NCBI GenBank assembly: GCA_024640785.1
Contig: JAHEEI010000009.1
Span: 1 to 34,116, forward strand
Reading direction: 5' to 3'
DNA: 34,116 nucleotides
DNA from: Pseudomonadota bacterium
GTDB lineage: Bacteria > Desulfobacterota > WTBG01 > CAIYCZ01 > CAIRTM01
Both the position numbers and the translations under genes were made by a program. Positions within the stretch are counted from its first letter, which is position 1. Each line of letters opens with the position of its first letter. The notes below the pieces were generated by a model. It saw nothing but the letters and a program-made list of their open reading frames with translations. It was not told the DNA's origin and made no database searches. This document shows positions 3,939-29,129 of this stretch, piece by piece.

Positions 3939-5189
3939 TTAATGCGGCTTGTAATTTTTGGTTAATTTATTTTTTGAGAGGATCTTGTCGTACTGCTCCC
4001 AGTTTTCAAGGACCTCCATGGCTTTGACCATCATTGGATCACTTAAAGGATCATCGGATTTTATTTTGAGAATATCTTCAGTTTGAGAGGTTTCATTATC
4101 AATAGTTATATCAGGTTCTATTCCCGTTCCATGTATTGTTCTGTGGCTGGGCAGATAATATTTTGCAGTTGTAAGTCGCAGTCCTGAACCGTCAATTAGT
4201 GGAAATATTGTCTGTACAGTTCCCTTGCCAAAGGTTTTTCTTCCTATCACGATTGCACGTTTATGATCCTGTAAAGATCCTGCTACTATCTCAGATGCAC
4301 TGGCACTTCCTTCGTTCACCAGTATTACAATATTGAAACTATATTTTCTTAAATCGTTCTTTGCATGATATTCAAGATTCTGGCTCTCTATCCTGCCGTC
4401 TGTATATACAATCAAGCCTTCATCAAGAAATTGGTCAATTATGCTAACGGCCTGGGTTAAAAGGCCTCCAGGGTTTGATCTAAGATCAATTATCAACCCA
4501 GTTATTTTATATTCATTCAAAAGTAATGAATTTAATGCGTTTTTAAATTCATTAGTAGTGCTTTCCTGAAACTGTGTGATCCTTATATATCCATAATTAT
4601 TGTCAATTACTTTTAGCTTAACACTTTTAATATTTATTATAGCTCTTGTTATGTTAAAGCTCTTTGGTTTTTTGAGTCCTTTTCTTTCTATAGTTATATT
4701 GATCTTTGTTCCCGGCTCTCCTCTCATTAATTTTATGGCAGACATTATGTCCATGTCTTTTGAGGAGTTGTCCTCAATCTTGATAATTTTGTCTCCAGGT
4801 TTCAGTCCTGCTCGAAAAGCAGGGGTGTCTTCAATTGGCGAGACAATTGTTAAATATCTGTCTTTAATGCTTATTTCAATTCCAAGGCCCCCAAATTCCC
4901 CTTTTGTTTCTACCTGTAGCTCATTGTAAATTCTGGGGGGCATAAAGGATGAATTCGGGTCCAGATTTTTTACCATACCTTTGATGGACTCATAAATAAT
5001 TTCAGAGTTCTTTTTTTCATTAACATAGTTTGTTTCTATAATTGAGAGAACATCAGAGTAAACGCGCAACTTGTCATATTCTTCATTTGATAAAGCGTAT
5101 AAATCACTGTAGGACAATATTATAGCTAATAAAAAACAAGCGGTAGGTAAAAGTAAAGTTTGAAAAAATCTAACCGGGTTAATATGCAT
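3939..5189 (-). CDS. ctpA: C-terminal processing peptidase, S41 family (CtpA/Prc)
   Basis: This is a periplasmic serine protease. Numbering from an alternative ATG two codons upstream, a signal peptide or anchor spans about 7-35. A PDZ domain starts at GEFGGLGIEISI (99-110) and includes PAFRAGLKPGDKI. The S41 catalytic core carries NEGSASASEIVAG with nucleophile S299 and GRKTFGKGTVQT with general base K324, 25 residues apart as in known CtpA proteins. The second ATG (5189) is preferred because AGGAG lies six bases before it; the first ATG directly abuts the AGGAG. The gene sits between envC and yibQ. Such proteases often trim murein hydrolases or their adaptors, so it may control the envC-linked septation machinery. 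Confidence 0.93.
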   Translation of the reverse strand: MHINPVRFFQTLLLPTACFLLAIILSYSDLYALSNEEYDKLRVYSDVLSIIETNYVNEKKNSEIIYESIKGMVKNLDPNSSFMPPRIYNELQVETKGEFGGLGIEISIKDRYLTIVSPIEDTPAFRAGLKPGDKIIKIEDNSSKDMDIMSAIKLMRGEPGTKINITIERKGLKKPKSFNITRAIINIKSVKLKVIDNNYGYIRITQFQESTTNEFKNALNSLLLNEYKITGLIIDLRSNPGGLLTQAVSIIDQFLDEGLIVYTDGRIESQNLEYHAKNDLRKYSFNIVILVNEGSASASEIVAGSLQDHKRAIVIGRKTFGKGTVQTIFPLIDGSGLRLTTAKYYLPSHRTIHGTGIEPDITIDNETSQTEDILKIKSDDPLSDPMMVKAMEVLENWEQYDKILSKNKLTKNYKPH

Positions 5190-5223
5190 TTTCATCTCCT
5201 GTAAAATCGGGTTATTTATTCCC

Positions 5224-6372
5224 TTATTTTTCGAGCCATCTTAAAGGGTCCAGAGGTTCTCCCTTATGCCTTATCTCAAAATATAGACAGCTACCATTTA
5301 GGGAATTGGTGTCGCCTACCAAAGCAACTGTTTCATTCTTTCTAACAATATCTCCAGTTTGTTTGAATAATTTATCAGCATGCGCATAGATAGAATAGTA
5401 ATGATCTCCATGATTGATTATAATCATTTTCCCATATCCCTTGAACCAATCCGCATAAATGACCTTGCCATTAAAGATTGACTTTATTTCCATGCCGGAT
5501 GGAGCCTTGATTTCAATGCCTTTTTGAAAAGTGAACGTATGAAGATCAGGATGTTCAGTCCTGCCGAATCCTGAAATTATTTTACCTTTTACCGGAAATG
5601 AAAGTTTGCCTTTCATTAATGAAAAATTACCCTCGAGTTGTTTGAAATCGGATTGATCTGAAGGAAGATCGTCTATAAAAGTCTGTAGTTTTTCAGCATA
5701 TTTTTTTAGCTCATTTATCGCTGAAATTTGAAGTTCTTTTTTCTTTCTCGTATCTGCTAATAATGCTAATTTATCTTTTTTTGTAGACTTAATTTCGCTT
5801 GTTTTCCTGAAATATGAATCCTTTTTGATTTCAAGCGAAGTTTTTTGTTTTCCGAGCTTTTCCTCATGTTTGATCTTGTCCTCAATTTTATTGAGAGATT
5901 TTTTAATCATCTCATAATCTTTAGATACAATTTCATTAAGTAGTTTGTCCTGTCTTAAGAAATCATTATATGTTTCAGATGATAAGAGAATTCTTACACC
6001 GTTTCGCCTATGATATTTGTATAGCGCTACCAGGCGTTTTTCCAGGACAGTCGTTATTTCATTTATTTCACTGTTTAATTTATTAATTGTCTCTCTTGAC
6101 TTTTTAATATCACTTTTAATTTCAGAGATCTTCCAGTTTATTTCTTTTACTTTGATATTTTCTTTAATAAGCTGCTGTTCAAGACGGTTAAGCCTTTCTA
6201 TAACTTGACCTTCTTTTTTTTTGTATTCCTTAAGTTTTTTTTCTTTTTGAATTATCTTATTTTTTATGTTGTCTAGTTTAATTTGTTCAGATTCTGTCTT
6301 AGCTGAAATTTTGTTCGGACAACATACAGTTATAATGATGATAATTAATGAAATAAAAGTTATAAATTTCAT
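5224..6372 (-). CDS. envC: Murein hydrolase activator EnvC (degenerate LytM)
   Basis: EnvC is a periplasmic adaptor that, under FtsEX control, activates septal amidases. The 382-residue protein has a signal peptide (about 1-25), a long Lys/Glu-rich coiled coil (28-235) and a C-terminal LytM/M23 domain (258-380). The zinc ligands of active LytM enzymes are mostly replaced: Q283 and E287 stand at the HxxxD motif and Y364 at the third His, while H331 remains. This is the pattern of EnvC-type, non-catalytic activators. The position directly after ftsEX (two bases) and before ctpA fits. It is an unlikely peptidase by itself; the amidase it would activate is not in the window. Confidence 0.93.
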   Translation of the reverse strand: MKFITFISLIIIIITVCCPNKISAKTESEQIKLDNIKNKIIQKEKKLKEYKKKEGQVIERLNRLEQQLIKENIKVKEINWKISEIKSDIKKSRETINKLNSEINEITTVLEKRLVALYKYHRRNGVRILLSSETYNDFLRQDKLLNEIVSKDYEMIKKSLNKIEDKIKHEEKLGKQKTSLEIKKDSYFRKTSEIKSTKKDKLALLADTRKKKELQISAINELKKYAEKLQTFIDDLPSDQSDFKQLEGNFSLMKGKLSFPVKGKIISGFGRTEHPDLHTFTFQKGIEIKAPSGMEIKSIFNGKVIYADWFKGYGKMIIINHGDHYYSIYAHADKLFKQTGDIVRKNETVALVGDTNSLNGSCLYFEIRHKGEPLDPLRWLEK

Positions 6373-6374
6373 AA

Positions 6375-7280
6375 TTATATCTTAAATTCCTTTAAGCTTT
6401 TTAAGGAGATAAAAGTTCCGGTAAGGCCGAGGATTAAACCGCATAGAATTATGATTGAGGATTGGTAGGTGTTTAAAAAAATGAGAGTATTATTACCAAA
6501 ATAAAAATTGAATCCTAAAGCGATATTAAATGTTATGATTTCATGAATTATATAAACAATTAACAGGGCAACTGCTGAACCGGTTATGCCCTGAAGAAGT
6601 CCTTCGATGTAAAATGGTATTTTAATGAATCTGCCAGTTGAACCTACAAGTTTCATTATCTCGATTTCATCACGTCTACTGTATACCATGAGCTTAATAG
6701 TATTAGATATAATAAAAAGAGATGAAATGAACAGAAAAGCACCAATGGTCATTCCAGTTATTTTAAGGAAATAAAAGAATCCGTTAAATCTTTCCAGCCA
6801 TTTTTGACCATATTCAATATCAGTAATACCTTTAATTTTATCTATTTTATCAATTAAATTTTCTATTGATTCAATGTCCAGAAATTCTGGGTTAATGTTA
6901 ATTTCAAAAGAATTAGGAAGGGGATTGTTATTTAAATGTTCAAGGATACCATCCTGTCCCTTGAGTGAATCTTTTAAAGACTCCAAGGCTTCCTTTTTTG
7001 AGACAAACCTCACATTTGAAATTTCTGGGTGTTCTTCAAGAGAATTTTTTATTATATTTATTGAGCCAATGTTAAGTTTATCCTCCAGATAAACCAGGAC
7101 ATGTACCCTTTCAATCCAGTTTTTTTTAAATTCTGAAAGATTAATTACAAGTAATAGGAAAGTTGTAAAGATAACAAAAGTAAAGGTTATTGTGGTTAAT
7201 GCCGTTATATTGATTAATATATTGCTTTTGATATTACTTATTACAGAGCGTAAACAATATCTGGTTTTATTAATAATCAT
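6375..7280 (-). CDS. ftsX: Cell division ABC transporter permease FtsX
   Basis: FtsX is the membrane partner of FtsE and passes ATP-driven conformational change to EnvC in the periplasm. The 301-residue protein has the FtsX topology: a first membrane helix at about 18-45, a periplasmic loop of roughly 120 residues (HVLVYLEDKL onward), then three helices near 170-195, 215-240 and 270-295. SRRDEIEIMKLVGSTGRFIKIPFY is the family's conserved cytoplasmic stretch before the third helix. The start is two bases after the ftsE stop, and the AAGG in the last ftsE codons can serve as the ribosome-binding site, so expression of the two is coupled. Confidence 0.93.
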   Translation of the reverse strand: MIINKTRYCLRSVISNIKSNILINITALTTITFTFVIFTTFLLLVINLSEFKKNWIERVHVLVYLEDKLNIGSINIIKNSLEEHPEISNVRFVSKKEALESLKDSLKGQDGILEHLNNNPLPNSFEININPEFLDIESIENLIDKIDKIKGITDIEYGQKWLERFNGFFYFLKITGMTIGAFLFISSLFIISNTIKLMVYSRRDEIEIMKLVGSTGRFIKIPFYIEGLLQGITGSAVALLIVYIIHEIITFNIALGFNFYFGNNTLIFLNTYQSSIIILCGLILGLTGTFISLKSLKEFKI

Positions 7281-7282
7281 TT

Positions 7283-7936
7283 TTAGCCTTCTAATTTTCC
7301 ACGTTCTAAGGTGATTATATTTTCTGAGAAATTAAGTGCGGTATTCTTGTCGTGTGTGGCAATCACTACAGTTGTTCCTCGAGCATTGATTGCCTTAAAG
7401 AGCTTCATAATTTCAAAAGACAGTTTCGGATCAAGATTTCCAGAAGGTTCATCAGCCAGTAAAAGTATGGGGTTGTTAATTATGGCTCTTGCAATTGCAA
7501 CACGCTGCTGTTCACCTCCAGATAGCTGTAAAGGAAGGGAATCTTTTTTTTGTAAAAGTCCAACCCATTTCAATACCTGCCAGACCTTTTTTTTAACTAA
7601 TTTTATTCTTGTACCAATTATATCAAGTGGGAAGGCAACATTATCATAAACAGATCTATTCTGTATAAGCCTGAAATCCTGAAAAACTACTCCTACACTA
7701 CGTCTAAAATAGGGGATTTCTTTTGGAAGCATGCGGGTAATATTTTTACCGTTTACAACTATTTCTCCAGAGTTTGGTTTTTCTGAAGAGAATATAAGTT
7801 TAATAAGCGTAGATTTGCCTGCTCCGCTGGGCCCAGTTATAAAGACAAAGTCACCTTTGCTGATATTCAGATTAATATCATTTATCGCAGGGATTTTATT
7901 TTCGTAATATTTAGTGACACGGTGAAGTTTTATCAT
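7283..7936 (-). CDS. ftsE: Cell division ATP-binding protein FtsE
   Basis: FtsE is the cytoplasmic ABC ATPase of the FtsEX divisome complex. The 217-residue protein has Walker A GPSGAGKSTLIKL, a Q-loop in VGVVFQDFRL, the ABC signature LSGGEQQRVAIARAI, Walker B ILLLADEPSGNLD and the H-loop VVIATHD. Length and motif spacing are standard. It begins the ftsE-ftsX-envC-ctpA-yibQ run, 67 bases downstream of the tsaC-type gene on the same strand, so it may share that transcript or have a promoter in the AT-rich gap. No strong Shine-Dalgarno is visible before the ATG. Confidence 0.95.
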   Translation of the reverse strand: MIKLHRVTKYYENKIPAINDINLNISKGDFVFITGPSGAGKSTLIKLIFSSEKPNSGEIVVNGKNITRMLPKEIPYFRRSVGVVFQDFRLIQNRSVYDNVAFPLDIIGTRIKLVKKKVWQVLKWVGLLQKKDSLPLQLSGGEQQRVAIARAIINNPILLLADEPSGNLDPKLSFEIMKLFKAINARGTTVVIATHDKNTALNFSENIITLERGKLEG

Positions 7937-8003
7937 CTTGATTTGTTTTCTTTATTCATAACAATTAAATTATAAGCTAAAAAAGATACTTAGGAGATTA
8001 ATA

Positions 8004-8645
8004 TTAAGTAATACATGAACAGTAGTCAACTAGTAAAGAAGAGTCAATAGCGCCTTTTCTTAAAATTTTAAAAGGTTCTCTGGAAACATCAATAATGGTG
8101 GAAGGCAGACCTCCATTAGTATTACCCGCGTCAATAATAAAATCAACAGAATCTAATATTTTTTTGTCGATTTTACTAATGTTTGAAGCGTTTTTTCTCC
8201 CGGAAATGTTTGCGCTAGTACTTGTTATTGAGGAGTTTATTCTTTTAAGTATTATGTTTATAACATTTAACCCGGAATGTCTGCAGGCTACAGTCCCAGT
8301 ACCTGCTGTTATTGTGTGGCTTAAATTATCATCAGCTTTAAACACCAGAGTTAAAGGTCCCGGCCAGAATTGGGCTGCTAATTTTAGAGCATTAGTGCTG
8401 ATATCAGCGCTTATTTTCTGTAGGAAAGAAATTTCAGGAATAATTAGAGGTAAAGGATTTATTAAATCTCTTCCTTTGATATCAAATATTTTAACAACTG
8501 AAGTTTCATCGTTATAAAGCGCCCCGATTCCGTAAAAAGTTTCAGTCGGGTAAATAAAAGTTTTACCTTTCGATATGAGTTTTGAAATTATGTCTAGTGT
8601 ATCTTTATCAGGATTTTGCTGGTCAATCTTTATTATATGAGGCAT
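8004..8645 (-). CDS. L-threonylcarbamoyladenylate synthase (Sua5/YrdC/YwlC)
   Basis: The enzyme makes threonylcarbamoyl-AMP from threonine, bicarbonate and ATP for the t6A modification of ANN-decoding tRNAs. The 213-residue protein covers the YrdC domain: GKTFIYPTETFYGIGAL near the start, KIFDIKGRDLINPLPLII containing the KxR motif, QFWPGPLTLVF, VACRHSG, and SSITSTSANISG with the SxS motif. It lacks the C-terminal Sua5 domain, so it is the short YrdC/TsaC form with a modest C-terminal extension (GLPSTIIDVSREPFKILRKGAI). It lies between purE and ftsE on the same strand. Confidence 0.92.
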   Translation of the reverse strand: MPHIIKIDQQNPDKDTLDIISKLISKGKTFIYPTETFYGIGALYNDETSVVKIFDIKGRDLINPLPLIIPEISFLQKISADISTNALKLAAQFWPGPLTLVFKADDNLSHTITAGTGTVACRHSGLNVINIILKRINSSITSTSANISGRKNASNISKIDKKILDSVDFIIDAGNTNGGLPSTIIDVSREPFKILRKGAIDSSLLVDYCSCIT

Positions 8646-8780
8646 ATTAATTGTCAGTCACAAACTTATTTTTAATTATTCAGGGCTAACCGGTGTACAG
8701 TACAGGCAGTTGAGTTATGAAGATTCTTAAGTAAATGTGTTCTGCCAGCTAACACTTTATAATTTAAATAATCATTGTTT

Positions 8781-9290
8781 TTATCTGTTCTTTAATTTTA
8801 AGTTTAATTTACTGTTTTTATCTTCAACTGCTTTAACCATATCTTCTCTATATTTTACCAGTCTTTCTTTTATTTTCGGATATTTTAGCGATAATATTTG
8901 TGCTGCAAAGATCCCTGCATTTTTAGCCCCGCCTTTACCGATAGACATTGTTGCTACGGGTATTCCACTAGGCATCTGCACTGTTGAAAGTAATGCATCA
9001 AGCCCATTTAAGGAAGATGAATCAATAGGCACACCAATAATAGGTAAAGTTGTTTCAGAGGCTATAACACCGGCAAGATGAGCTGCCCACCCAGCACCGG
9101 CGATTATTACTTCTATGCCCCGGTTAGAGGCTGTTTTGGAATATTCATGTGTTTTTACAGGAGTCCTGTGTGCTGAAGTAACTGTTACTTCATAATTAAT
9201 CTTAAACTCATCAAGTATTTCTGTCGCGCCTTTCATTATTTCAAAATCTGAATCGCTTCCCATTACAATTCCAACTAGTGGATTATCCAT
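8781..9290 (-). CDS. purE: N5-carboxyaminoimidazole ribonucleotide mutase
   Basis: PurE (class I) moves the carboxylate of N5-CAIR to give CAIR in purine synthesis. The 169-residue protein has the signature stretches [11 protein letters not shown] (phosphate binding), VTSAHRTP with the conserved His, [15 protein letters not shown] and [20 protein letters not shown]. The expected PurK partner, which makes N5-CAIR, is not in the window. GGAG about eight bases upstream supports the start. It lies 104 bases after purD and 135 bases before the tsaC-type gene. The C-terminus ([14 protein letters not shown]) is a Lys/Asn-rich tail. Confidence 0.96.
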
Positions 9291-9394
9291 TTTTTACTCC
9301 TAAATAATTATTAGACAATATAAATTTAATTGTTAAGTCAAACTATTCAATAGTAATCTTATTTCTTTTATAATAAGTTTTGACTTCCTTAGAC

Positions 9395-10678
9395 TTATAT
9401 TCTGCTGTAATTTTTACAGGCTTTTATACCAATATCAGTTCTATAATGCATATCAGTCCAGCATATTTTGTTTACTCCTTTATAAGCAATATCAATCGCT
9501 TCTTTAATTGAGTTACCAAGCGAAGTAACTCCGAGCACACGTCCTCCGTTATTAACTAAGGAGCCATGTTTTTCTGCCGTGCCGGCATGAAAAACAATTA
9601 GGTCTCCTGTTTCTTCAGCTTCTTTAATTCCATTGATTTCAAAACCTTTATTATAGTCAGCCGGATAACCCCCTGAAGCCATTACTACACATACAGAGGC
9701 TTTTTCATCAATCTCTAGACAGTATCTATCGAGTTCTTCAATTGTTGCTAAATAGAAAAGATCAAAAAGATCACTTTTAAGCCTTGATAATATTGGCTGT
9801 GCTTCAGGATCTCCAAGCCTTACATTAAATTCAAGGATTCTTGGGATGTTGTTTTCTATCATTAGACCAGCATAGATAATCCCTTTGTATTTAATTCCTT
9901 TTTTTGCCATCATATTTATTAACGGTTCAATTACTTTTTCGATTGTGAAAGTATAAACTTCATCCGTCAGGACAGGAGCTGGGGAATATGCTCCCATTCC
10001 ACCGGTATTTGGCCCTTCGTCATTGTCGTAGACAGGTTTATGATCCTGGGATGAAGGAAGTACGGATATTGTCTTACCGTCAGTCAGGCATATAAAAGAC
10101 GCTTCTTCTCCAGTAAGGAAATCTTCAATAATGATATTGTCACCAGCATCACCAAATTCTTTTTTAACCAGGATTCTATCAATAGCTTCAATTGCCTGCT
10201 CTAGGGTTTTACATGGGATTACTCCTTTGCCGGCAGCCAGTCCATCAGCTTTTATTACTACAGGTTTATTTCTATTTTTTACATAGGAAACTGCCTTCTC
10301 GGGATCTGAAAAAACTTCAAAATCAGCAGTAGGGATTCCAGCTTCTCTCATAATGTTTTTTGAAAAAACTTTGCTTCCCTCAAGCATTGCGCCATCTTTT
10401 GTCGGACCAAAAATTTTAAGGCCTGCTTTTTGGAAAAGATCAACAATACCGAGTGTTAGGGGTAGTTCAGGTCCAACTACAGTTAAATCAATTGTATTTT
10501 TTAAAGCAAAAGCCTTTAAAGAGTTTAAGTCTGTTGGTGAAATATTTATACATTCCGCAACATTTTTAATGCCGGGATTTCCGGGGGCACAGTAGACTTT
10601 TTCTACTTTAGAACTTTTTGATATCTTCCAGCATATTGCGTGTTCTCTTCCACCGCTACCGACAACCAGAACTTTCAT
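9395..10678 (-). CDS. purD: Phosphoribosylamine-glycine ligase
   Basis: PurD joins glycine to phosphoribosylamine with ATP to give GAR, the second step of purine synthesis. The 427-residue protein shows the N-terminal MKVLVVGSGGREHAICWK and CAPGNPGI motifs, the ATP-grasp part with KADGLAAGKGVIPCKT and IIIEDFLTGEEASFICL, then NTGGMGAYSPAPVLTDE and EFNVRLGDPEAQPIL, which carries metal and ATP ligands. GGAGG eight bases before the ATG fixes the start. It is the first gene of the long minus-strand run and is divergent from rsmE, so the 227-base gap should contain promoters for both. Confidence 0.97.
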   Translation of the reverse strand: MKVLVVGSGGREHAICWKISKSSKVEKVYCAPGNPGIKNVAECINISPTDLNSLKAFALKNTIDLTVVGPELPLTLGIVDLFQKAGLKIFGPTKDGAMLEGSKVFSKNIMREAGIPTADFEVFSDPEKAVSYVKNRNKPVVIKADGLAAGKGVIPCKTLEQAIEAIDRILVKKEFGDAGDNIIIEDFLTGEEASFICLTDGKTISVLPSSQDHKPVYDNDEGPNTGGMGAYSPAPVLTDEVYTFTIEKVIEPLINMMAKKGIKYKGIIYAGLMIENNIPRILEFNVRLGDPEAQPILSRLKSDLFDLFYLATIEELDRYCLEIDEKASVCVVMASGGYPADYNKGFEINGIKEAEETGDLIVFHAGTAEKHGSLVNNGGRVLGVTSLGNSIKEAIDIAYKGVNKICWTDMHYRTDIGIKACKNYSRI

Positions 10679-10905
10679 TGGTAATCCTCCGCTTCTTAAT
10701 TAGAATGCTTTTAAAATTTTAGATTTTAAGCTTGAATACAACATGAAATTTATTTTTATTATTGTTTGAGTTGCTTATTTCTGCTGAGTTTATTATTATT
10801 AACTATACATAATAGGTTGTTTTAGGTGAAGTTTTTTTTATCATCAAAAATACCTTAAGTAAAGCGAAAGAATATTAATATTCTTTAACAGTTCACCTTT
10901 CGATT

Positions 10906-11661
10906 ATGTCTAAATTTTATATAGATAAAAATAATATTTCTAATAATAAAGTTCTTATATGCCGTGATGAATCAAAGCATATAATGAAGGTTCTCAGGTA
11001 TAAAATAGAAGACTTAATAACGCTTTTTGATTCAGATGGAATGACTTATGAGTGTGTAATAAAAGCATATGAAAATGAGGAGATTATAGCTGAATTAATT
11101 AATAAAATTGAAAATAAAAATTTAGAATCATCTAAAATTTTACTAGCACAAGCTGTTTTAAAATCTAAAAAGATGGATTCTGTTATACAAAAAAGTACTG
11201 AGCTTGGCATATCAAGAATAATCCCTTTTTTTTCATCAAGGACAATTCCGAGGTGGAACACTGCTAGATGTTTTAAAAAGGCAGAACACTGGAGAAACAT
11301 TGTAAAAGCTTCCGTTAAGCAGTCTGGTATTAGAAAAATACCCTGTGTTGATAATATCGTTCCTTTTGATGAGGTTGTATCATCAGATTTGAATATGAAT
11401 AAGTTATTATTGTATGAAAAAGAGAGAAATGTATCCTTAAAAAATATAATGAATACAATAGTATTTCCGTCAGATATTCTTATCATGGTTGGAGCGGAGG
11501 GTGGTTTTACAAGTGAAGAAGTTTCTAAAGCAAAACAGAGTGGTTTTTTAACAATCGGTATTGGTAACCTTATATTAAGAGCTGAAACTGTTCCAATTTC
11601 TGTTCTTTCAATATTACAGTACGAGTCCGGAAATCTTGGTTTTAATGGTTGCAGATTATGA
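10906..11661 (+). CDS. rsmE: 16S rRNA (uracil-N3)-methyltransferase RsmE
   Basis: RsmE methylates N3 of U1498 in 16S rRNA. The 251-residue protein has the N-terminal PUA-like part (HIMKVLRYKIEDLITLFDSDG) and the C-terminal SPOUT knot: QKSTELGISRIIPFFSSRT, WRNIVKASVKQSGI, ILIMVGAEGGFTSEEV and LGIGNLILRAETVPISV-like residues at 219-237, the knot that binds SAM. Upstream there is only a weak ribosome-binding site. The stop overlaps the start of the next gene by four bases (ATGA), suggesting coupling to the RDD membrane protein. Confidence 0.93.
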   Translation: MSKFYIDKNNISNNKVLICRDESKHIMKVLRYKIEDLITLFDSDGMTYECVIKAYENEEIIAELINKIENKNLESSKILLAQAVLKSKKMDSVIQKSTELGISRIIPFFSSRTIPRWNTARCFKKAEHWRNIVKASVKQSGIRKIPCVDNIVPFDEVVSSDLNMNKLLLYEKERNVSLKNIMNTIVFPSDILIMVGAEGGFTSEEVSKAKQSGFLTIGIGNLILRAETVPISVLSILQYESGNLGFNGCRL

Positions 11662-12559: not shown

Positions 12560-13189
12560 ATGAAAAATAATCTATCAGCCTTGACCGCATGTCACGCATG
12601 CGACCTGCTTGTTGCAGAAGAAGATATACCGCTGAACAGCAAAGCACACTGCCCTCGCTGCGGTTTTCCACTGTATGAGCCTAAAGTAAATACCGTTAAT
12701 AATACGCTGGCGCTTGTGATTACTGGTCTTTTACTTCTGTGGCCGGCAATCACAATGCCCATTCTGGAAATGTCGATATTAGGAGACACGTCTTTTAACA
12801 CTCTCCTGAGTGCAGTTGTCAAAATTTTCCAGGCTGGCTACTACTGGGTTGCCTTTGTGGTCTTTTTTACCAGTATCTTCGCTCCGCTTGCCAAGTTCTC
12901 AGTTCTGTGCACGGTTCTTCTCCACATCAAAGCCAAACGCTACACGCCCGTATTGCCCGTCCTGTTTAGGTATTATGTCAAGCTTGATGCCTGGGAAATG
13001 CTCGATGTATATTTGATCTCGATGATGGTTGCCGTCATCAAGCTGTTCGATATTGCCGCGATCCATACCGGATTGGGACTGTTCTGTTTATTAGGGCTAT
13101 TGGCAACAAGTATCCTGGTGACTATAACCTTGGATAAAAAACAAATTTGGGACCACATCGAAGACTTATGCCGCAAACAAAGCAGTTAA
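12560..13189 (+). CDS. pqiA: Paraquat-inducible protein A family membrane protein, first copy
   Basis: The 209-residue protein begins with a zinc ribbon (C11, C14, C31, C34, in CHACDLL and CPRCGFP) followed by about four membrane helices: LALVITGLLLLWPAIT, a helix near 90-120, one around LDVYLISMMVAVI and LFCLLGLLATSILVTITL. E. coli PqiA and LetA carry two such halves in one chain; here each half is a separate gene. The partner MCE gene follows after the second pqiA. These proteins are the inner-membrane part of lipid-transport systems that work with periplasm-spanning MCE proteins. Codon use is visibly more GC-rich than in rsmE or ftsY. No clear Shine-Dalgarno is seen; a 17-codon TTG-started frame ends in TAATG at this start. 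Confidence 0.87.
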   Translation: MKNNLSALTACHACDLLVAEEDIPLNSKAHCPRCGFPLYEPKVNTVNNTLALVITGLLLLWPAITMPILEMSILGDTSFNTLLSAVVKIFQAGYYWVAFVVFFTSIFAPLAKFSVLCTVLLHIKAKRYTPVLPVLFRYYVKLDAWEMLDVYLISMMVAVIKLFDIAAIHTGLGLFCLLGLLATSILVTITLDKKQIWDHIEDLCRKQSS

Positions 13190-13800
13190 CCGCAAAAAAA
13201 GCGAACCTGGTTCTTTGTCACGATTGCCAAAAGCTGCTCAGATATCCTGACGTGCCGAACAGGAAGAGTTTGCAGTGCCCTCGTTGCAGGTCGACCGTAC
13301 ACCAGCGTAAACCGGAAAGTCTTTCCCGGACATGGGCGCTGGTTATCTCGGGTTTTATCTTCCTTATTCCAGCAAATCTGCTGCCGATCATGACCTTTAC
13401 CATGAAGGGAAGCGGGGAGCCTTCAACCATCATTGACGGCGTTCTTATGATGGTGCATCACCACATGGTACCTATTGCACTAATTGTTTTTATCGCCAGT
13501 ATTGCCGTGCCTTTTCTGAAACTAACCGGACTGGCCATTCTTTTGCTCTCAGTGCAGTTTAACTGGAATACGAGCAAGAGGCAGCGGACAGTGATGTACC
13601 GTCTTATCGAGACGATCGGACGATGGTCCATGCTGGATGTATTTGTTATAGCTGTGCTTGGCGCTTTGGTAGAGCTGGGGATTCTTGCGGAAATAAAGGC
13701 GGGTCCGGCCGCAACATTTTTTTGTTTGTCAGTAGTTGTCACCATGTTTGCAGCCGAGTCTTTTGATACGCGTCTTATATGGGATAAATCAGAGGAGTAA
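13168..13800 (+). CDS. pqiA: Paraquat-inducible protein A family membrane protein, second copy
   Basis: From the ATG at 13168 this 210-residue protein has its own zinc ribbon (C17, C20, C37, C40, in LCHDCQKLL and CPRCRST). The PqiA membrane part follows: RTWALVISGFIFLIPANLLP, a helix at about 98-122, RWSMLDVFVIAVLGALVELG and a last helix. It overlaps the first copy by 22 bases in another frame, so the pair is translationally coupled and presumably acts as a two-chain version of PqiA/LetA. The ATG at 13168 is preferred to a TTG at 13147, which would deepen the overlap. The ending LIWDKSEE resembles the IWDHIEDL end of the first copy, consistent with duplication. Confidence 0.87.
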   Translation: MPQTKQLTAKKANLVLCHDCQKLLRYPDVPNRKSLQCPRCRSTVHQRKPESLSRTWALVISGFIFLIPANLLPIMTFTMKGSGEPSTIIDGVLMMVHHHMVPIALIVFIASIAVPFLKLTGLAILLLSVQFNWNTSKRQRTVMYRLIETIGRWSMLDVFVIAVLGALVELGILAEIKAGPAATFFCLSVVVTMFAAESFDTRLIWDKSEE

Positions 13801-13891
13801 AAAACAGCACGGCCTTTTGCAAGTTGCATTGCACTATATCTATAAAAGCAGGACAATTAATGGCCTGTATAAATTTTAGGAGGAAATACAT

Positions 13892-16222
13892 ATGACAGAT
13901 CAACAATCTTATTCGGAATCCCCGGCAGGTCAGAAAGCTGTTGTCAAACACAAGCGTGGTATCTCCTTCATATGGTTTCTTCCGGTTATTGCTGCGCTGA
14001 TTGGGGCTTGGTTGATATACAAGGGTATTGCTGAGGCTCCTCTGGAGGTTGTTATTAATTTTGAATCGGCCGAAGGCATATCCGCTGAAAAGACAAAAGT
14101 GATGTACAAAGGTATTGAGGTGGGAACAGTGAGTGCGGTTAATTTAAGTCCGGACCAGCAGACAGTCAATGTGACTGTTAAGTTTGACCAGGAAGATAAA
14201 CGGTTGCTTTTGGATACTACTCAATTCTGGCTGGTTAAACCCCGCCTGACACTTCAGGGGGTTTCGGGTCTGAGCACCGTATTGGGGGGGGCTTATATCT
14301 CTATGCGCCTGGGAGCAGGTGAAGGCAAACCGGCAAGAGAATATAAAGCGCTCCCGGAACCACCGGCTATTTCGGAAGATGCGCCAGGGCTCCATCTCGT
14401 CCTAATTTCTAAGGACTTGGCTACCTTTGTGACTGGTAGCTTGGTGTACTATAAAGGAATAGAAGTAGGTGAAGTTGAAAAATGGGAGCTTTCTGAAGAT
14501 AATCAGCAAACAGAAATTAAGGTTTATATATATCCGGAATTTAGTGATCTCGTACATCAAAACACTCATTTCTTCAACGATACTGGGGTAAAGGTAGAGG
14601 GCGGGCTCACCGGATTTACAGTGCGCACCAAATCTCTCTCCTCAATCATGCTGGGAGGTATTTCCTTTAATACTCCCAGGAATGTCTCCAAGGGTGCAAA
14701 GGCTCAAAATGGTGATCAATTCGAGCTTTTTGAGGACTTTAAGGAAGCGGAGGCCGGTATTCCCATTACCATTCGTTTTCCCAGTGCTGTCGGGCTTGAA
14801 GAGAGCCAAACAAAAGTCCTTTTCGAAGGAGTACAAGCAGGGTATCTTAAAAAAATCCACTTTCAGCCTGATCTGTCTTTTGTTATTGCAGAGGTAATAA
14901 TGGACACCCGGTCTGAACCCTACTTATTGAGCGATACAGAGTTCTGGCTGACTAAAACAGAAGTCTCGTTGACAGGTATCAGCGGGCTTGAAAACCTGAT
15001 TGGAGCAAACCAGATTCAAGTCGTAGTGGGTGGTAAAGGAGAACCCCAGCGAAAATTTATTGCCCTTGATGAACCGCCCGTCTTAAGGGCCCGGGAACCG
15101 GGATTGCACATTAAACTCGTTGCCGACGAACTGGGCTCGATAGACAGGGAAACACCGGTTTACTATAAAAAGATAGATGTGGGTGTTGTAGAGAGCTACG
15201 AGTTAAACAAAAAAACCGGCAAGATCGAAGCACAAATCTTTATTGAAAAAGAGTTTCAGCATCTCGTCATGACGACGTCACGGTTCTGGAATGCCAGCGG
15301 CATCAGTGTCACGGGCGGACTATCCGGTCTTGAGATCCGTACAGAGTCACTAGAATCGATACTGTCTTCCGGCATTTCCTTCTATACTCCGGAGGATCAT
15401 CCGAATTCCCGCAGGGCCAAAACTGGCGATACGTTTACCCTGCATAAGGATTACAAGAGTGCCCATGTGACTGGAGTTCCCATAACCATCACCTTTGACA
15501 GCGCCGAGGGTCTAGAAGAAGGAACCAAAATCAAATATCATGGCATAAACGTGGGTATGGTCAACACGATATCCTTTGATCCGTCAATGGAAAAGGTTAT
15601 TTTTTCTGCTCATCTAAACCTCACCGCGGGTATGTTGGCAAAAGAAGGCACCCGATTCTGGATCGTTAAACCCGAATTCGGTCTTGCAGCCATTTCCAAC
15701 CTGGGCACCCTAATCGCCGGTGATTATATTGCTATCGAACCATCGGCACAGGGCGGCAAGCCTGCCAACGATTTTATCGGCCTTAAAGAGCCTCCTGTCA
15801 AGGAGCCTGCTTCTTGGGGCTTACCCATTGTTCTGGTCAGTGACCGGCTCGGTTCAATCTGCGTTGGAAATAATGTTTTTTACCGCAACATTGTTGTTGG
15901 GGAAGTCACAAGCTATGAACTGGCCGCCACCGGCGACCATGTACGGATATATCTCAACATTCAAAAACGCTATGTTCCTCTGGTCAGGGAAAATTCAGTT
16001 TTCTGGAATGCAAGCGGGGCTGATGTTGATTTCGGCCTTTTTAAAGGACTGGAAATAAAGACAGAATCCTTTGAAGCCATTCTTGCCGGCGGCATTGCCT
16101 TTGCAACGCCTGACACTGACAAAATGGGGGAAGTGGCCCAAAAGGATGCTGTCTTTAAGCTGAACCCGAAAGCGCAGGATTCGTGGCTGCAATGGAAGCC
16201 TAGAATTGAGTTACCGGAATAA
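13892..16222 (+). CDS. pqiB: PqiB/LetB-like protein with six MCE domains
   Basis: The 776-residue protein has one N-terminal membrane helix (24-43) and then six MCE domains at about 50-145, 166-260, 290-380, 404-500, 528-615 and 643-740. Odd domains share the pattern I.F.SA.GL...TK..Y.GI.VG; even ones share GL...L....L......VYYK.I.VG followed by FWNASG and a TESLESIL-like end. The protein is therefore three tandem copies of a two-MCE unit of about 238 residues. MCE rings stack into tubes that carry lipids across the periplasm; E. coli PqiB has three and LetB seven, so this is an intermediate length. AGGAGG ten bases before the ATG (13880-13885) supports the start. No PqiC-like lipoprotein follows. 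Confidence 0.9.
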   Translation: MTDQQSYSESPAGQKAVVKHKRGISFIWFLPVIAALIGAWLIYKGIAEAPLEVVINFESAEGISAEKTKVMYKGIEVGTVSAVNLSPDQQTVNVTVKFDQEDKRLLLDTTQFWLVKPRLTLQGVSGLSTVLGGAYISMRLGAGEGKPAREYKALPEPPAISEDAPGLHLVLISKDLATFVTGSLVYYKGIEVGEVEKWELSEDNQQTEIKVYIYPEFSDLVHQNTHFFNDTGVKVEGGLTGFTVRTKSLSSIMLGGISFNTPRNVSKGAKAQNGDQFELFEDFKEAEAGIPITIRFPSAVGLEESQTKVLFEGVQAGYLKKIHFQPDLSFVIAEVIMDTRSEPYLLSDTEFWLTKTEVSLTGISGLENLIGANQIQVVVGGKGEPQRKFIALDEPPVLRAREPGLHIKLVADELGSIDRETPVYYKKIDVGVVESYELNKKTGKIEAQIFIEKEFQHLVMTTSRFWNASGISVTGGLSGLEIRTESLESILSSGISFYTPEDHPNSRRAKTGDTFTLHKDYKSAHVTGVPITITFDSAEGLEEGTKIKYHGINVGMVNTISFDPSMEKVIFSAHLNLTAGMLAKEGTRFWIVKPEFGLAAISNLGTLIAGDYIAIEPSAQGGKPANDFIGLKEPPVKEPASWGLPIVLVSDRLGSICVGNNVFYRNIVVGEVTSYELAATGDHVRIYLNIQKRYVPLVRENSVFWNASGADVDFGLFKGLEIKTESFEAILAGGIAFATPDTDKMGEVAQKDAVFKLNPKAQDSWLQWKPRIELPE

Positions 16223-16550
16223 GGGACCCTGCTTTATTTTGATGAAGATGTTTTTGTCGAATGGGCTGAAAAATTAAAAAATGACTACAAATTGTCGGGA
16301 CCATGAGTCTGGTGCTGGAGCTAGACAATAACGAAGGGTTTATGTATTTCAGTAATAAGTTTTAATTTAAAAGTGGTGTATTTAATGTTTTTCCTTTTAA
16401 AAACCACCCTTACCCTCCAGCATAGGTTTTTATAGATATAGAACCCTTGAAAAAGTCGGTTACCCTATTGAAAAGGTTAGTTTGTTAACTATATATTGAT
16501 TATGTATGATATATTTGAATAAACTAAGTATTGTTTGAAGAGGTGGAAGG
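16223..16550. other. Gap between the MCE gene and the channel gene
   Basis: The first 84 bases continue the MCE gene frame after its TAA for 27 codons (reads LYFDEDVFVEWAEKLKND in part) up to a TGA at 16304, which looks protein-like. The rest is AT-rich without a gene. AAACCACCCTTACCCT at 16401-16416 resembles AACCACGAGTACCCT of the intergenic repeat but only over a short core. GAGGTGGAAGG at 16540-16550 holds the ribosome-binding site of the channel gene, close to its ATG. No convincing rho-independent terminator is seen. Confidence 0.5.
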
Positions 16551-17681
16551 ATGAAAAAAACGGCATTTCTGTCAGTTACAGTATTTGTAATCTTTTTTAT
16601 TGCAAATAATCTTTATGCGCAGGATGTCACCATTTCTCCGGCTCAACCGGATCCCCGTCTTAATGCGAATATTTCCCACATCAAAAAAATCAAATCCGAT
16701 CTATTACTCACTCCACCAATTGAGGGCGGCCCGGTGATAGTTCGTGCTTCGTTTCATTTGCAAGATATTAACGAGATCGATGAGTCTGCAGAGACATTTG
16801 AATTTACAGGTATCCTTACACTCACATGGCAAGACAAGAGACAGGCTTTTAATCCCAAAGAAGCCCAAACCGAAGAGAAGATATATCAGGGCAGTTATCA
16901 GTTTAACGAATTATCGCCGGCCTGGTATCCTCAGGTAATACTAGCTAATGAGTCTGGCCTATATGAAAAACACTCTGTTCTTCTTCGTGTAAAACCAGAC
17001 GGTACCTGCACATTGGTTGAGACCGTCAACGCAATAGCTGAAGTGGATCTGAATCTGAAGAGATGTCCGTTTGATAGGCAAAGGTTAGTGGCTAAATTCA
17101 AAGTCCTTGGTTTTGACACGAGTGAGGTCGTGTTTGAAACAGTATCCCTTCACCCACTCACAGACAGTCAAAAAATCAAAATACCACAATGGGTTCTGAC
17201 AAACCTCAGTTCCCCAGTACATAATCGTACTCTCTCTCACGCCGGAGATCAAGATGCTTCCTCTTTGTTTGTTTTTACCATTGATGTACAGAGAAAATCC
17301 TTTTTCCTGCTGCGGCTTGTTGTACTTCCGCTTCTATTAATCGTCATGCTCTCATGGTCGGTGTTTTGGATGGATCGATCATCTCTGGGAGATCGTATCA
17401 GTGTTTCTTTCATAGGAATTCTTACTGCTGTGGCCTACCAGTTGGTGGTGAGTGAGAATCTCCCCCAAATCTCTTATGTAACCTTAATTCATGCTTTTAT
17501 AAATATATCTTTCATTTTCATGTGTTTAACCACCATAATTAACTTGGTTGTTGGCTGTTTAGACAAACAGGGGAAATTTAAAGCAGGAGATCTGATCGAT
17601 TACCGTTGTCGCATGATTATACCCCTTGTGTACTTTGGTACACTGTTGGTTGTTGTGACCATAGTGTTCATTTTTTTCTGA
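16551..17681 (+). CDS. Prokaryotic pentameric ligand-gated ion channel (Cys-loop receptor homologue)
   Basis: The 376-residue protein has a signal peptide (about 1-23), an extracellular ligand-binding domain (about 50-245) and four membrane helices: M1 252-274, M2 280-305, M3 306-336, M4 353-376. Family marks are LTWQDKR (91-97), WYPQ..LAN (125-133), RCPFDRQ (171-177, the PFD of the Cys-loop position) and VLPLLLIVM in M1. M2 starts G280-D281-R282 and ends ENLP305, which lines up with GEK...ELIP of nicotinic receptors and SER...NILP of ELIC. The acidic residue at the -1' position suggests a cation channel. C153 and C172 are 18 residues apart, so there is no canonical 13-residue Cys loop. The ligand is unknown. 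It follows the MCE gene by 328 bases; base composition is between that of the pqi genes and the flanks. Confidence 0.87.
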   Translation: MKKTAFLSVTVFVIFFIANNLYAQDVTISPAQPDPRLNANISHIKKIKSDLLLTPPIEGGPVIVRASFHLQDINEIDESAETFEFTGILTLTWQDKRQAFNPKEAQTEEKIYQGSYQFNELSPAWYPQVILANESGLYEKHSVLLRVKPDGTCTLVETVNAIAEVDLNLKRCPFDRQRLVAKFKVLGFDTSEVVFETVSLHPLTDSQKIKIPQWVLTNLSSPVHNRTLSHAGDQDASSLFVFTIDVQRKSFFLLRLVVLPLLLIVMLSWSVFWMDRSSLGDRISVSFIGILTAVAYQLVVSENLPQISYVTLIHAFINISFIFMCLTTIINLVVGCLDKQGKFKAGDLIDYRCRMIIPLVYFGTLLVVVTIVFIFF

Positions 17682-25685: not shown

Positions 25686-26357
25686 ATGGCTTTTAAAAAC
25701 GATAAAAATTCGGGTAATTTTTTTGAAGTAAAAGACTGCGCAATTATCACAAGAATGGGTGGAGTTGAGTCTGCTATAAATCTTAGAGAACTAAAGGAAA
25801 GACTGATTACATGTTCAATTGATTGCCTGTATTTTCATTTCTGTGAGACCTTAATCAGACCATCCTTTGATAATCCTGAATATAGAAATGATTTTGCACT
25901 CTGGGCTGCTTATAATTTAAGAGATAGGGCTCTGGCTGAACGGCTGGGTATCATTAACCCCTACAGTTTTAATAATTTGGAAGAACTGCGTGAAAAAATA
26001 ATTGAGATAGTAGAAGACCGGTTAAGCCATCTTGATTATATGCCTTCCGTACCAAAGGGTGATGAGTTTATTTTTATGCGTGCGGCAACTGTTGTTTTTG
26101 ATACGGGCATTGTTCTCAAAAAACCTTCAGACCTGCTTTTAAAACTGCCCTCAATGAGTAGAAGTACCCTTTATTATCATTTTATGGAGGCAAGGAGACG
26201 GACTCAGGACAGAGTAGACGATTTTACCTTCTGGCTGCAGTTTCATTCTGATAAAAATCAGAAAATAATTGATGCGTTGTCTCAAATAGATTTCTATTTC
26301 ATAAATTTAAATGAGCTTAAATCCGTTTTAATTGAAACCTTAAAAAAGGTTATTTAA
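25686..26357 (+). CDS. DUF5752-like protein of the trehalose cluster
   Basis: The 223-residue protein is soluble, without membrane segments. Stretches such as FEVKDCAIITRMGGVESAIN, YFHFCETLIRPSFDNPEY, NDFALWAAYNLRDRALAERL and STLYYHFMEARRR...DDFTFWL are what I recall of the DUF5752 family, which has no assigned biochemical role and is often beside trehalose synthase genes. Two similar motifs (YFHFCE...DFALWA and YYHFMEA...DFTFWL) suggest an internal duplication. It precedes the TreT-like gene by five bases, so a role in trehalose synthesis or its control is inferred from context. Confidence 0.72.
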   Translation: MAFKNDKNSGNFFEVKDCAIITRMGGVESAINLRELKERLITCSIDCLYFHFCETLIRPSFDNPEYRNDFALWAAYNLRDRALAERLGIINPYSFNNLEELREKIIEIVEDRLSHLDYMPSVPKGDEFIFMRAATVVFDTGIVLKKPSDLLLKLPSMSRSTLYYHFMEARRRTQDRVDDFTFWLQFHSDKNQKIIDALSQIDFYFINLNELKSVLIETLKKVI

Positions 26358-26362
26358 AAATT

Positions 26363-27619
26363 ATGACTGAAACAAGAACCTTAGCAAGTTATGAAGAAAT
26401 TGCCGGTAAAATTGCAATCTCTCAGCTGGAACAGCTTAGCAAAAACCTTAAAGGGGCTAAGGTTGTTCACGTCAATTCAACAAGGGAAGGTGGCGGTGTA
26501 GCTGAAATACTTAACTGGATGGTTCCTTTAATGAACGAGCTTGGTCTTGATACAAGTTGGGAAGTCGTTGAAGGGAATGAAGGGTTCTTTGATGTAACTA
26601 AGGCTTTTCATAATGGCATGCAGGGTAGTCCTGTTAAATTGACTGATGAGATGATTAAATGTTATGAGGATACCTTAAAGTCGAATTTTATCCGCTTACA
26701 AAAGAAGCTTGAAAAAGCAGATTTTGTGTTTATTCATGATCCTCAGCCTGCTGCTTTTCTTGATATGTGTCCTAATAGAAAAGGTAAATGGGTCTGGAGG
26801 TGTCATATAGATTCTAGCAACCCATCAAGGGATGTCTGGAAATACATAAAAAGTAAGGTTGAAAATTATGACGCAAGCATATTTTCGATGCCTAATTTTG
26901 CACAGCCCTTGCCGCATCCTCAGTTTGTAATTGCGCCGAGTATTGACCCGTTAAGTGAAAAAAATTGTGATTTATCCAGTGGGGAGATTTCTGAGACATT
27001 AAGTAAGTATAACATACCAGATAAGTTCCCGATCCTTACCCAGGTTTCAAGGTTTGATAAATTTAAGGATCCTTTAGGTGTTATAGACGCATTTAATGAA
27101 TTAATAAAAACAATTCCGGCGGAGCTTGTTTTAGCGGGCGGAGGCGCTACTGATGATCCAGAAGGCAAGGTAGTTCTTGAGGATGTTTATAAGGCTGCTA
27201 AAGATAATGAGCATATTCATGTGCTTATGCTGCCAAGTGATTCTCACAAAACCATAAATGCATTGCAGCGCGCATCAACAATTGTAATCCAGAAATCAAT
27301 CCAGGAAGGTTTTGGGCTGACCGTAACTGAAGCCCTGCTGAAAGAAAAACCTGTAATTGGCGGAAATGTTGGAGGAATAAGGCTACAGCTGCATAACCAT
27401 TATACCGGTTTCTTGGTCGAAACACCTGAAGGCGCTGCGTTAAGAATTAGAGAACTGCTTCATGATGAAGAAAAATTAAATAGAATGGGTAAAATAGCAA
27501 AACAGTTTGTAATTGAAAATTTTCTACTTACACGTCACTTAAGAGAATACCTCACTCTTCTAGTCGGGCTAAAATGTGAACTTACAAATTATGTACTGAC
27601 TGAATCCAGCAACTGTTAA
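26363..27619 (+). CDS. treT: Trehalose synthase, TreT-type GT4 glycosyltransferase
   Basis: TreT-like enzymes join NDP-glucose to glucose, giving trehalose in one reversible step. The 418-residue protein has VVHVNSTREGGGVAEILNWM at its N-terminus, the family glycine-rich start, followed by ELGLDTSWEVVEGNEGFF, FIHDPQPAAF and HIDSSNPSRDVW. The C-terminal GT-B half has PILTQVSRFDKFKDPLGVIDAF, LVLAGGGATDDPEG and VIQKSIQEGFGLTVTEALLK..PVIGGNVGG, which holds the EGFGLTVTE donor-binding motif of GT4 enzymes. It lies between the DUF5752-like gene and the GT20 gene with short gaps, so an operon is likely. Related trehalose phosphorylases cannot be excluded. Confidence 0.85.
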   Translation: MTETRTLASYEEIAGKIAISQLEQLSKNLKGAKVVHVNSTREGGGVAEILNWMVPLMNELGLDTSWEVVEGNEGFFDVTKAFHNGMQGSPVKLTDEMIKCYEDTLKSNFIRLQKKLEKADFVFIHDPQPAAFLDMCPNRKGKWVWRCHIDSSNPSRDVWKYIKSKVENYDASIFSMPNFAQPLPHPQFVIAPSIDPLSEKNCDLSSGEISETLSKYNIPDKFPILTQVSRFDKFKDPLGVIDAFNELIKTIPAELVLAGGGATDDPEGKVVLEDVYKAAKDNEHIHVLMLPSDSHKTINALQRASTIVIQKSIQEGFGLTVTEALLKEKPVIGGNVGGIRLQLHNHYTGFLVETPEGAALRIRELLHDEEKLNRMGKIAKQFVIENFLLTRHLREYLTLLVGLKCELTNYVLTESSNC

Positions 27620-27631
27620 TATTCATATTTT

Positions 27632-29116
27632 ATGGACACGAATAAAAAAAAAATAGTCATTGTCTCAAACCGGCTGCCGGTTATTATTGAAGAAAAAAAC
27701 GGTAAGGTTGAAATAAAAGAAGGCACCGGTGGTTTGGTGACTGCTCTTGCCCCTGTATTGAGAAATAGGGGCGGGGTTTGGATTGGCTGGCCTGGCTCAC
27801 TTTTTAATAAAGAAGTTGAGTCATTAATTTCTTCTTCAGCAGGAAATACCGGTTATCAGTTGAAACCTGTAAGTCTAAATAGTTATGAAATCGAAAAATA
27901 TTATCATGGCTTTTCAAATGAAATAATCTGGCCGCTTTTCCATGATCTTCAGTCGAGGTGCCATTTTGATCCAGAATTTTGGCAGGTTTACAAGGATGTT
28001 AATAAGAAGTTTGCAGAGACTATTATTAAAAACATTACTACTGATGATTATGTCTGGGTTCATGATTATCACCTGATGAATGTTTCAAAAGAACTGCGTT
28101 TTAAAATTCCAGAAATAAAAATTGGGTTTTTTCTTCATATCCCTTTCCCGCCCCTTGATATTTTTCTTAAACTGCCGTGGAGACAGGAGCTTTTAATTTC
28201 TCTACTTGAATATGACTTGATTGGTTTCCAGACGATCAGAGACAGAAGAAATTTTATTCAATGTGTCAGAACGCTTATTAAGAATGTTGATGTACAGGGG
28301 AAAGGGCAGGTGGTATCAGTTCAGTCCGGAGATAGAAAAATTAAAGTGGGCCATTTCCCTATCAGTATTGACTATAAATTCTTTACTGATAAAACAGCAA
28401 CACGAGAGGTATCTGACTGCGCCTGGTTTATTCATGAGAATATAAGTGAACGTCAGATTCTCCTTGGGATCGACAGGCTTGATTATACAAAAGGAATTGT
28501 TGAAAGGTTAAAAGCTTTTGAGATCTCTTTAATAAAATACCCGGAGTTAATAGGGAAGGCTTCATTTATTCAAATTGTTGTTCCAAGCAGGACCAGGATA
28601 AATGAATACATATCTTTAAGATCTCAAATTGAGGAGACTGTAGGAAATATAAATGGTAGATTTACAAAATATGGATGGGTTCCAGTATATTATATTTTTG
28701 GCTATCTTGATTTCTATGAGCTTCTTGCCTACTATAAATCTGCTGAAATCGCGGTTATTACACCGCTGAAGGATGGAATGAATCTGGTCGCAAAGGAATA
28801 CTGCGCCTGTAATCTTGATGATATCGGTGTACTTATTCTAAGTGAGTTTGCCGGTGCATCTGCCCAATTACAACGTGGGGCTATTATGGTAAATCCTTAT
28901 GATGTTGTTCAGGTTTCTGATGCAATTTATAAAGCTTTCAAGATGTCTGATGATGAAAAAAGATCAAGAATGAGAAAGATGAGACAGGGAATCAAGAAAC
29001 AGGATATTTTTTGGTGGGTAGATACATTTTTGCAGGCAGCTTTTACTGAAAATCTTGATAATTTCCCTGTTCTTGAACCCTATGATTATATATCTCAAAT
29101 AGAAATATCTAATTAG
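27632..29116 (+). CDS. otsA: Alpha,alpha-trehalose-phosphate synthase, GT20 family
   Basis: The 494-residue protein is a GT20 glycosyltransferase, expected to make trehalose-6-phosphate from UDP-glucose and glucose-6-phosphate. Motifs are IVIVSNRLPVIIEE and GTGGLVTALAPVL at the N-terminus, YVWVHDYHLMNV, FFLHIPFPPLDIFLKLPWR, LGIDRLDYTKGIVERLKAFE, VPSRTRINEYISLRSQIEE, ITPLKDGMNLVAKEY and LSEFAGASAQLQ. No OtsB phosphatase domain is fused and none is in the window. Glucosylglycerol-phosphate synthase is the main alternative within GT20 and cannot be excluded. It follows treT by 12 bases. Confidence 0.88.
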   Translation: MDTNKKKIVIVSNRLPVIIEEKNGKVEIKEGTGGLVTALAPVLRNRGGVWIGWPGSLFNKEVESLISSSAGNTGYQLKPVSLNSYEIEKYYHGFSNEIIWPLFHDLQSRCHFDPEFWQVYKDVNKKFAETIIKNITTDDYVWVHDYHLMNVSKELRFKIPEIKIGFFLHIPFPPLDIFLKLPWRQELLISLLEYDLIGFQTIRDRRNFIQCVRTLIKNVDVQGKGQVVSVQSGDRKIKVGHFPISIDYKFFTDKTATREVSDCAWFIHENISERQILLGIDRLDYTKGIVERLKAFEISLIKYPELIGKASFIQIVVPSRTRINEYISLRSQIEETVGNINGRFTKYGWVPVYYIFGYLDFYELLAYYKSAEIAVITPLKDGMNLVAKEYCACNLDDIGVLILSEFAGASAQLQRGAIMVNPYDVVQVSDAIYKAFKMSDDEKRSRMRKMRQGIKKQDIFWWVDTFLQAAFTENLDNFPVLEPYDYISQIEISN

Positions 29117-29129
29117 AAAGGCTTCTGAA

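Follow-up and report, generated by a model that had tools for sequence, protein, structure and literature searches.

A bacterial relative of nerve-receptor ion channels in a compositionally foreign, pqi-containing block of a Desulfobacterota genome

Introduction

Bacterial pentameric ligand-gated ion channels (pLGICs) serve as structural models for nerve receptors, and according to Jaiteh et al. 2016 (PMC4795631) a biological role was known for no pLGIC of a unicellular organism. The stretch of DNA analysed here (hereafter the window; 34,116 nt, contig JAHEEI010000009.1) contains a candidate gene of this kind. Does it encode a genuine member of this family, how was it acquired, and do its neighbours hint at what it does? 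A first-pass annotation, made from the letters alone, had read the gene as a bacterial Cys-loop-receptor homologue in an accessory segment. It proposed an HMM search and a phylogeny against GLIC, ELIC and DeCLIC as checks, and regarded a fold without a beta sandwich plus four helices as grounds for rejection.

Results

The gene (hereafter LGIC) runs on the forward strand from an ATG at 16551 to a TGA at 17681 and encodes 376 amino acids in an intact frame. The motifs previously read from it are all in place, namely LTWQDKR (91–97), WYPQ (125–128), RCPFDRQ (171–177) and, in M2, G280-D281-R282...E302-N303-L304-P305. Its parts are as follows.

16540..16549 (+): likely ribosome-binding stretch, purine-rich, GAGGTGGAAG, directly 5' of the ATG (sequence)
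16551..17681 (+): pLGIC subunit gene (ORF, Pfam/NCBIfam, PDB matches, fold)
16551..16619 (+): predicted signal peptide, residues 1–23, MKKTAFLSVTVFVIFFIANNLYA (sequence; putative cleavage site)
16719..17297 (+): extracellular ligand-binding beta sandwich, residues 57–249, PF02931 (Pfam; model strands)
17007..17009 (+): Cys153, at the start of strand 152–164 (alignment of 34 relatives; model)
17064..17075 (+): Cys172 followed by P173-F174-D175 of the Pro-loop (alignment of 34 relatives)
17298..17369 (+): M1 helix, residues 250–273 (AlphaFold model)
17388..17465 (+): M2 pore helix, residues 280–305, GDR...ENLP (alignments; AlphaFold model)
17484..17567 (+): M3 helix, residues 312–339 (AlphaFold model)
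17577..17675 (+): M4 helix, residues 343–375 (AlphaFold model)

To place the protein, we compared it with curated families and solved structures. Both Pfam domains of the superfamily are recognized above their curated cut-offs: PF02931 at residues 57–249 (65.8 bits versus a cut-off of 26, E = 4.7e-18) and PF02932 at residues 258–334 (38.5 bits versus 28.1, E = 2e-9). The NCBIfam model TIGR00860 matches with 119 bits (E = 1.7e-34), under that model's own cut-off. NF033918 (LGIC_1) is covered over its whole length with 216.4 bits (E = 5.7e-64), far under its cut-off of 500 bits, so the protein is not a member of LGIC_1 as curated. When solved structures were searched with the single sequence, GLIC chains were the best matches (E = 1.3e-29). 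A profile of 35 subfamily sequences reached a best E value of 4.7e-54 against the PDB, and its top two matches were GLIC-GABA-A and GLIC-GlyR chimeras (186.7 and 180.8 bits, compared to ≤174.0 bits for GLIC). That the chimeras outscore GLIC suggests, at the level of sequence, a membrane domain more like that of metazoan receptors than GLIC's is.

The AlphaFold model, calculated from a 35-row alignment (pLDDT 85.7, pTM 0.75), shows a single chain in which four long helices follow a beta sandwich. Its N-terminus forms a helix (2–21) followed by disorder (23–46), and the second of the four helices spans residues 276–301. Foldseek matched the model to DeCLIC, GLIC, GABA-A beta3 and sTeLIC with E values of 1e-26 to 1e-25, the likeness to sTeLIC being by fold comparison only. 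The superfamily marks P173 and D175 of the Pro-loop and R248 before M1 are present. Family profiles, PDB matches, model and fold search all agree with the first-pass identification: the window gene is a genuine bacterial relative of nerve-receptor ion channels.

The pore helix was examined next. M2 aligns to ELIC without gaps, as the annotation had claimed for the nicotinic pattern, with D281 at −1', R282 at 0' and L291 at 9', in register with the SER frame of ELIC. The same frame matches the nicotinic GEK motif. Six residues (R282, L291, P173, D175, R248 and P260) do not vary among the 34 closest relatives, of which 32 have Asp and 2 have Glu at −1'. W93, D95, R97, D281 and P305 join these six as strongly conserved across phyla, which argues for a working channel. 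The 20' position, E302 in the window LGIC, is acidic in most clade members. An acidic ring at −1' or −2' marks cation-selective pLGICs, and D281 supplies one; together with the Arg at 0', it suggests a cation-selective pore. The earlier reading of D281 as a sign of cation selectivity is thus consistent with an acid in 34/34 relatives and is still short of proof, since the −1' motif is in general insufficient for predicting selectivity in prokaryotes (Jaiteh et al. 2016, PMC4795631).

The cysteines were another point of interest, C153 and C172, with 18 residues between them, having been taken for a form intermediate between the canonical Cys loop and the Cys-free bacterial one. The protein has five cysteines (153, 172, 325, 336 and 353), of which 172 directly precedes PFD. 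The canonical Cys-loop positions, placed relative to PFD, are V165 and L179; in most relatives the first is Ser, Thr or Val and the second Leu. The disulphide pair with 13 residues between its cysteines, around the Pro-loop, is therefore missing, and the loop reads as an ordinary Cys-less Pro-loop, the usual bacterial replacement. C153 occurs in 9/34 relatives and C172 in one (L021), which has both; the other eight have C153 without C172. Only in the window LGIC and L021 is the usual Tyr or Phe before PFD replaced by Cys. More conserved are C325 in M3 (24/34) and C353 before M4 (26/34). In the AlphaFold model, C153 starts strand 152–164 and C172 lies beyond its opposite end, about a full strand length away, and going by this predicted secondary structure an intrasubunit bond is unlikely. 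These data argue against the pair as an intermediate or diagnostic new form, as it is sporadic among the relatives and sits at opposite strand ends.

We then considered what might open such a channel, beginning with the characterized bacterial members. GLIC of Gloeobacter violaceus, which is proton-gated, shares the fold, the hydrophobic gate at 9' and counterparts of D32 (as Glu), E35, D122 and R192. The window LGIC differs from it in having the acid at −1' rather than −2', an Arg at 0', a longer beta2-beta3 loop (YQGxYQFNE) and two more residues in the M1-M2 linker. Mapping of the GLIC pH residues E26, D32, E35, D122, E222, H235 and E243 gives acids at D72, E78, E81 and D175, whereas G280, A293 and S301 carry none (residue set: PMC5760087). 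With E222, H235 and E243 not conserved, proton gating cannot be predicted with confidence.

ELIC (Dickeya/Erwinia), which is amine-gated, has in common with the window LGIC an SWSVFW stretch at the end of M1, the Leu at 9' and an acid-Arg pair at −1'/0' (S-E-R in ELIC, G-D-R here). Its agonist-site residues Y38, F133, Y175 and F188 are replaced by I88, L186, H224 and S237. Metazoan Cys-loop receptors (nicotinic, GABA-A, glycine) show the same domain order and the same M1-M2 linker length; unlike them, the window LGIC lacks the Cys-loop disulphide positions, the aromatic box and the long M3-M4 loop. The positions that matter in the ELIC and nicotinic cages are in part a matter of general background. 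Mapped onto the window LGIC, the agonist cage consists of I88, A132, L186, H224 and S237, and loops D, A, B and C of the orthosteric site (I88, A132, L186, S237) are without aromatic residues. With these positions replaced, a ligand, if any, would be bound differently, and an amine or other ligand in an aromatic cage appears unlikely.

DeCLIC is the top Foldseek match (6.4e-27) and differs in pore sequence and in its N-terminal accessory domains, which the window LGIC, at 376 residues with a ligand-binding domain from near residue 57, does not have. E81 aligns with both DeCLIC E347, a calcium ligand (PMC9897478), and GLIC E35, which is central to proton sensing (PMC5760087). The loop-F half of the DeCLIC calcium site is missing, its glutamates being replaced by P212-Q213 in a loop F that reads P212-Q213-W214 (PMC9897478). 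As E81 is the counterpart of both residues, an effect of protons, divalent ions or small solutes at the coupling interface would be possible.

We consider it highly probable that the product is a homopentameric inner-membrane pLGIC, probably cation-selective, with its beta sandwich facing the periplasm, and that its gene was probably gained horizontally; that it assembles as a pentamer, conducts and selects for cations is what we infer. In such a channel, a periplasmic stimulus would act on the extracellular domain, and the signal would pass to a conserved coupling layer made up of the beta1-beta2 loop (E78 and E81), the Pro-loop (D175), the pre-M1 residue R248 and the M2-M3 loop. This layer would tilt M2 so that the leucine gate at 9' opens, and cations could then cross a pore that has D281 (−1') and E302 (20') at its mouths.

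To see how the subfamily is distributed, we scanned a genome collection and found relatives at 49 loci, most of them 40–58% identical. They are spread patchily over at least seven phyla (Desulfobacterota, Myxococcota, Verrucomicrobiota, Planctomycetota, Pseudomonadota, Acidobacteriota and Gemmatimonadota). The phylogeny places the window LGIC in a clade (bootstrap/SH-aLRT 100/99) separate from GLIC, ELIC and DeCLIC, in which phyla are mixed; its position inside the clade is not resolved, and the deeper order is uncertain because of long branches (ELIC, GLIC). GLIC, the best single-sequence match, is thus outside the clade, and no structurally solved channel among those placed in the tree or among the PDB matches falls inside it. 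Members are rare in the window's phylum: at a threshold of E ≤ 1e-10, 13/395 sampled genomes have a relative of any kind, and a close one occurs in just one of the 395 besides the window's. A phage or plasmid origin was considered and rejected, as a search for relatives on viral contigs found none and the single plasmid match is distant (Legionella adelaidensis, 25% identity).

Other pLGICs were noticed as well. The window's own assembly has a second, very different one (contig C58, 1794–2753, minus strand; L005/L002), 26% identical to the window LGIC. Chimeras aside, it matches glycine and GABA-A receptors best in the PDB (GlyR 3.9e-31 versus GLIC 1.7e-27), and the start of its M2 is without the charged −1'/0' motif. 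A 636-residue relative in the same phylum (L012) has the N-terminal domains of DeCLIC (E = 5.4e-132 to DeCLIC). One family of organisms in the class of G363 (f63) has a GLIC-like pLGIC in many of its sampled genomes, unlike the patchy occurrence elsewhere.

The genes upstream of LGIC stand out by composition.

12560..13189 (+): PqiA half, PF04403 (Pfam; foreign-composition block)
13168..13800 (+): second PqiA half, PF04403 (Pfam, block; TTG 13147 in the ORF list, ATG 13168)
13892..16222 (+): PqiB/LetB-type MCE protein with six MlaD domains (Pfam; foreign-composition block)
12560..17681 (+): compositionally foreign block pqiA-pqiA-pqiB-LGIC (GC3 0.40–0.52 versus 0.21–0.37)

GC3 is 0.52 for both pqiA genes, 0.47 for pqiB and 0.40 for LGIC, compared to 0.21–0.37 for the other genes measured. 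Codon-adaptation indices are 0.56–0.61 in the block and 0.68–0.79 for the other genes measured. Neither LGIC nor the window PqiB turned up in a search of 16 further genomes of the class. The accessory segment of the first-pass annotation is therefore supported, and LGIC was probably gained horizontally. Composition makes it plausible, short of proof, that LGIC arrived together with pqiA-pqiA-pqiB in a single event: pqiB and LGIC are separated by 329 bp of low GC, no flanking repeats or tRNA marking an insertion were found, and a promoter scan gave 7 matches where 6.9 were expected by chance. No riboswitch or known RNA was found within the window. Nor was a clean empty site seen by synteny among family relatives, because gene order near ftsY varies among them.

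The envelope-stress setting suggested by the first-pass annotation is weak. The NlpC/P60 gene on which it drew is of native composition, and NlpC/P60 and DUF6868, being native or low in GC and outside the block, were rejected as parts of the unit; in favour of such a setting are PqiAB inside the block and pqiABC at the channel locus of a single further genome. Otherwise the window is mostly housekeeping (PheT, HU, TtcA, SMC, FtsY, PurD, PurE, FtsEX and others). Contamination of the assembly is given as 5.7%; the window FtsY shares 73% identity with the FtsY of a family relative, indicating that the contig belongs to its assigned family. Elsewhere in the window, a run of genes for DUF5752, a TreT-like glycosyltransferase, trehalose-6-phosphate synthase and a universal stress protein (25686–29966) is likely a trehalose/osmotic-stress set. 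A 436-residue protein (30799–32109, minus strand) has no Pfam match in its N-terminal part and, close to the C-terminus, a weak HPr-like domain.

Discussion

The one other genome with Pqi genes at the channel is that of Deltaproteobacteria bacterium OFTM125 (locus L054), whose LGIC is 53–54% identical to the window's. There, a K-channel-like gene (Ion_trans_2), pqiA, pqiB, pqiC, corA and, last, LGIC lie on one strand (4786–10981). The genes from pqiA to corA overlap by 8, 4 and 4 bp; the corA stop lies 4 bp before the LGIC ATG. The remaining ∼48 loci are without the linkage. By chance, ∼0.07 such neighbours would be expected (a rough estimate from ∼28 operons, ten gene positions and ∼4000 genes). 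We found no mention of a pLGIC-Pqi link in the literature. The link is suggestive.

How should this be read? The channel might be part of a Pqi (MCE) module in which PqiAB moves phospholipids and the channel senses or sets ionic conditions at the inner membrane. Such a reading would agree with a conducting channel and give it an added role. The window's pqiA-pqiA-pqiB, directly upstream and of common foreign composition, and the tight packing at L054 both speak for it, as does the architecture of the two sets: six MlaD domains and two PqiA halves in the window, three MlaD domains and one PqiA gene at L054, a difference suggesting that the linkage may be independent. However, PqiA is encoded in 20/41 subfamily genomes and lies beside the channel only at L054. 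Nor is it near the channel at seven more subfamily loci, from the class of G363; several of these loci have short flanks. Moreover, PF03886 was not found in the window genome, which thus has PqiA and PqiB without PqiC, and there is the gap before LGIC. We regard this role as unlikely for the channel. The broader proposal, that some clade members work with the Pqi/MCE lipid-transport apparatus and help control envelope lipid traffic or membrane stress, seems to us unlikely.

Two other readings would deny the window LGIC a channel's role. It could be decaying or unexpressed acquired DNA, roleless in its host, as its absence from relatives, foreign codon use and chance-level promoter signal might suggest; yet the open frame, the good ribosome-binding stretch and the retention of every invariant residue make this quite improbable. 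Alternatively, the protein could keep the pLGIC fold as a non-conducting receptor or scaffold acting as a periplasmic sensor. The 6' position of M2 is a bulky Ile/Val versus Ser in GLIC, which could narrow the pore. On the other hand, conservation across phyla is among the highest at M2, the Pro-loop, the M2-M3 proline and the arginine before M1, as expected for gating and conduction, and a non-conducting sensor is in our view very improbable. A conducting, probably cation-selective channel is the reading we prefer.

Well supported, spread over at least seven phyla, without a member among the PDB matches and with a transmembrane domain that appears nearer to metazoan receptors than GLIC's, the clade deserves the attention of structural biologists. 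The L054 operon provides one concrete functional hypothesis for it; if true, a Pqi/MCE partnership would give a bacterial pLGIC an in-vivo role open to testing. Named strains carry clade members (Methyloceanibacter methanicus R-67174, M. superfactus R-67175 and Rhodopirellula solitaria CA85), so structure and knockout work look feasible.

Other genes recur near the channel. DUF3604 proteins, cation transporters and a D-aminoacylase-like amidohydrolase were rejected as partners, being absent from the window and with an excess over chance not shown. Cation-transport genes (ZnuA, Na/Ca exchanger, CorA, VIT1, cation efflux) lie beside the channel at L044, the L047 group, L054, L058, L063 and L067, which may be chance. 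In several lineages, a DUF3604 protein (PF12228) is encoded within three genes of the channel, at L029, L036, L047, L049, L052, L053 and L059.
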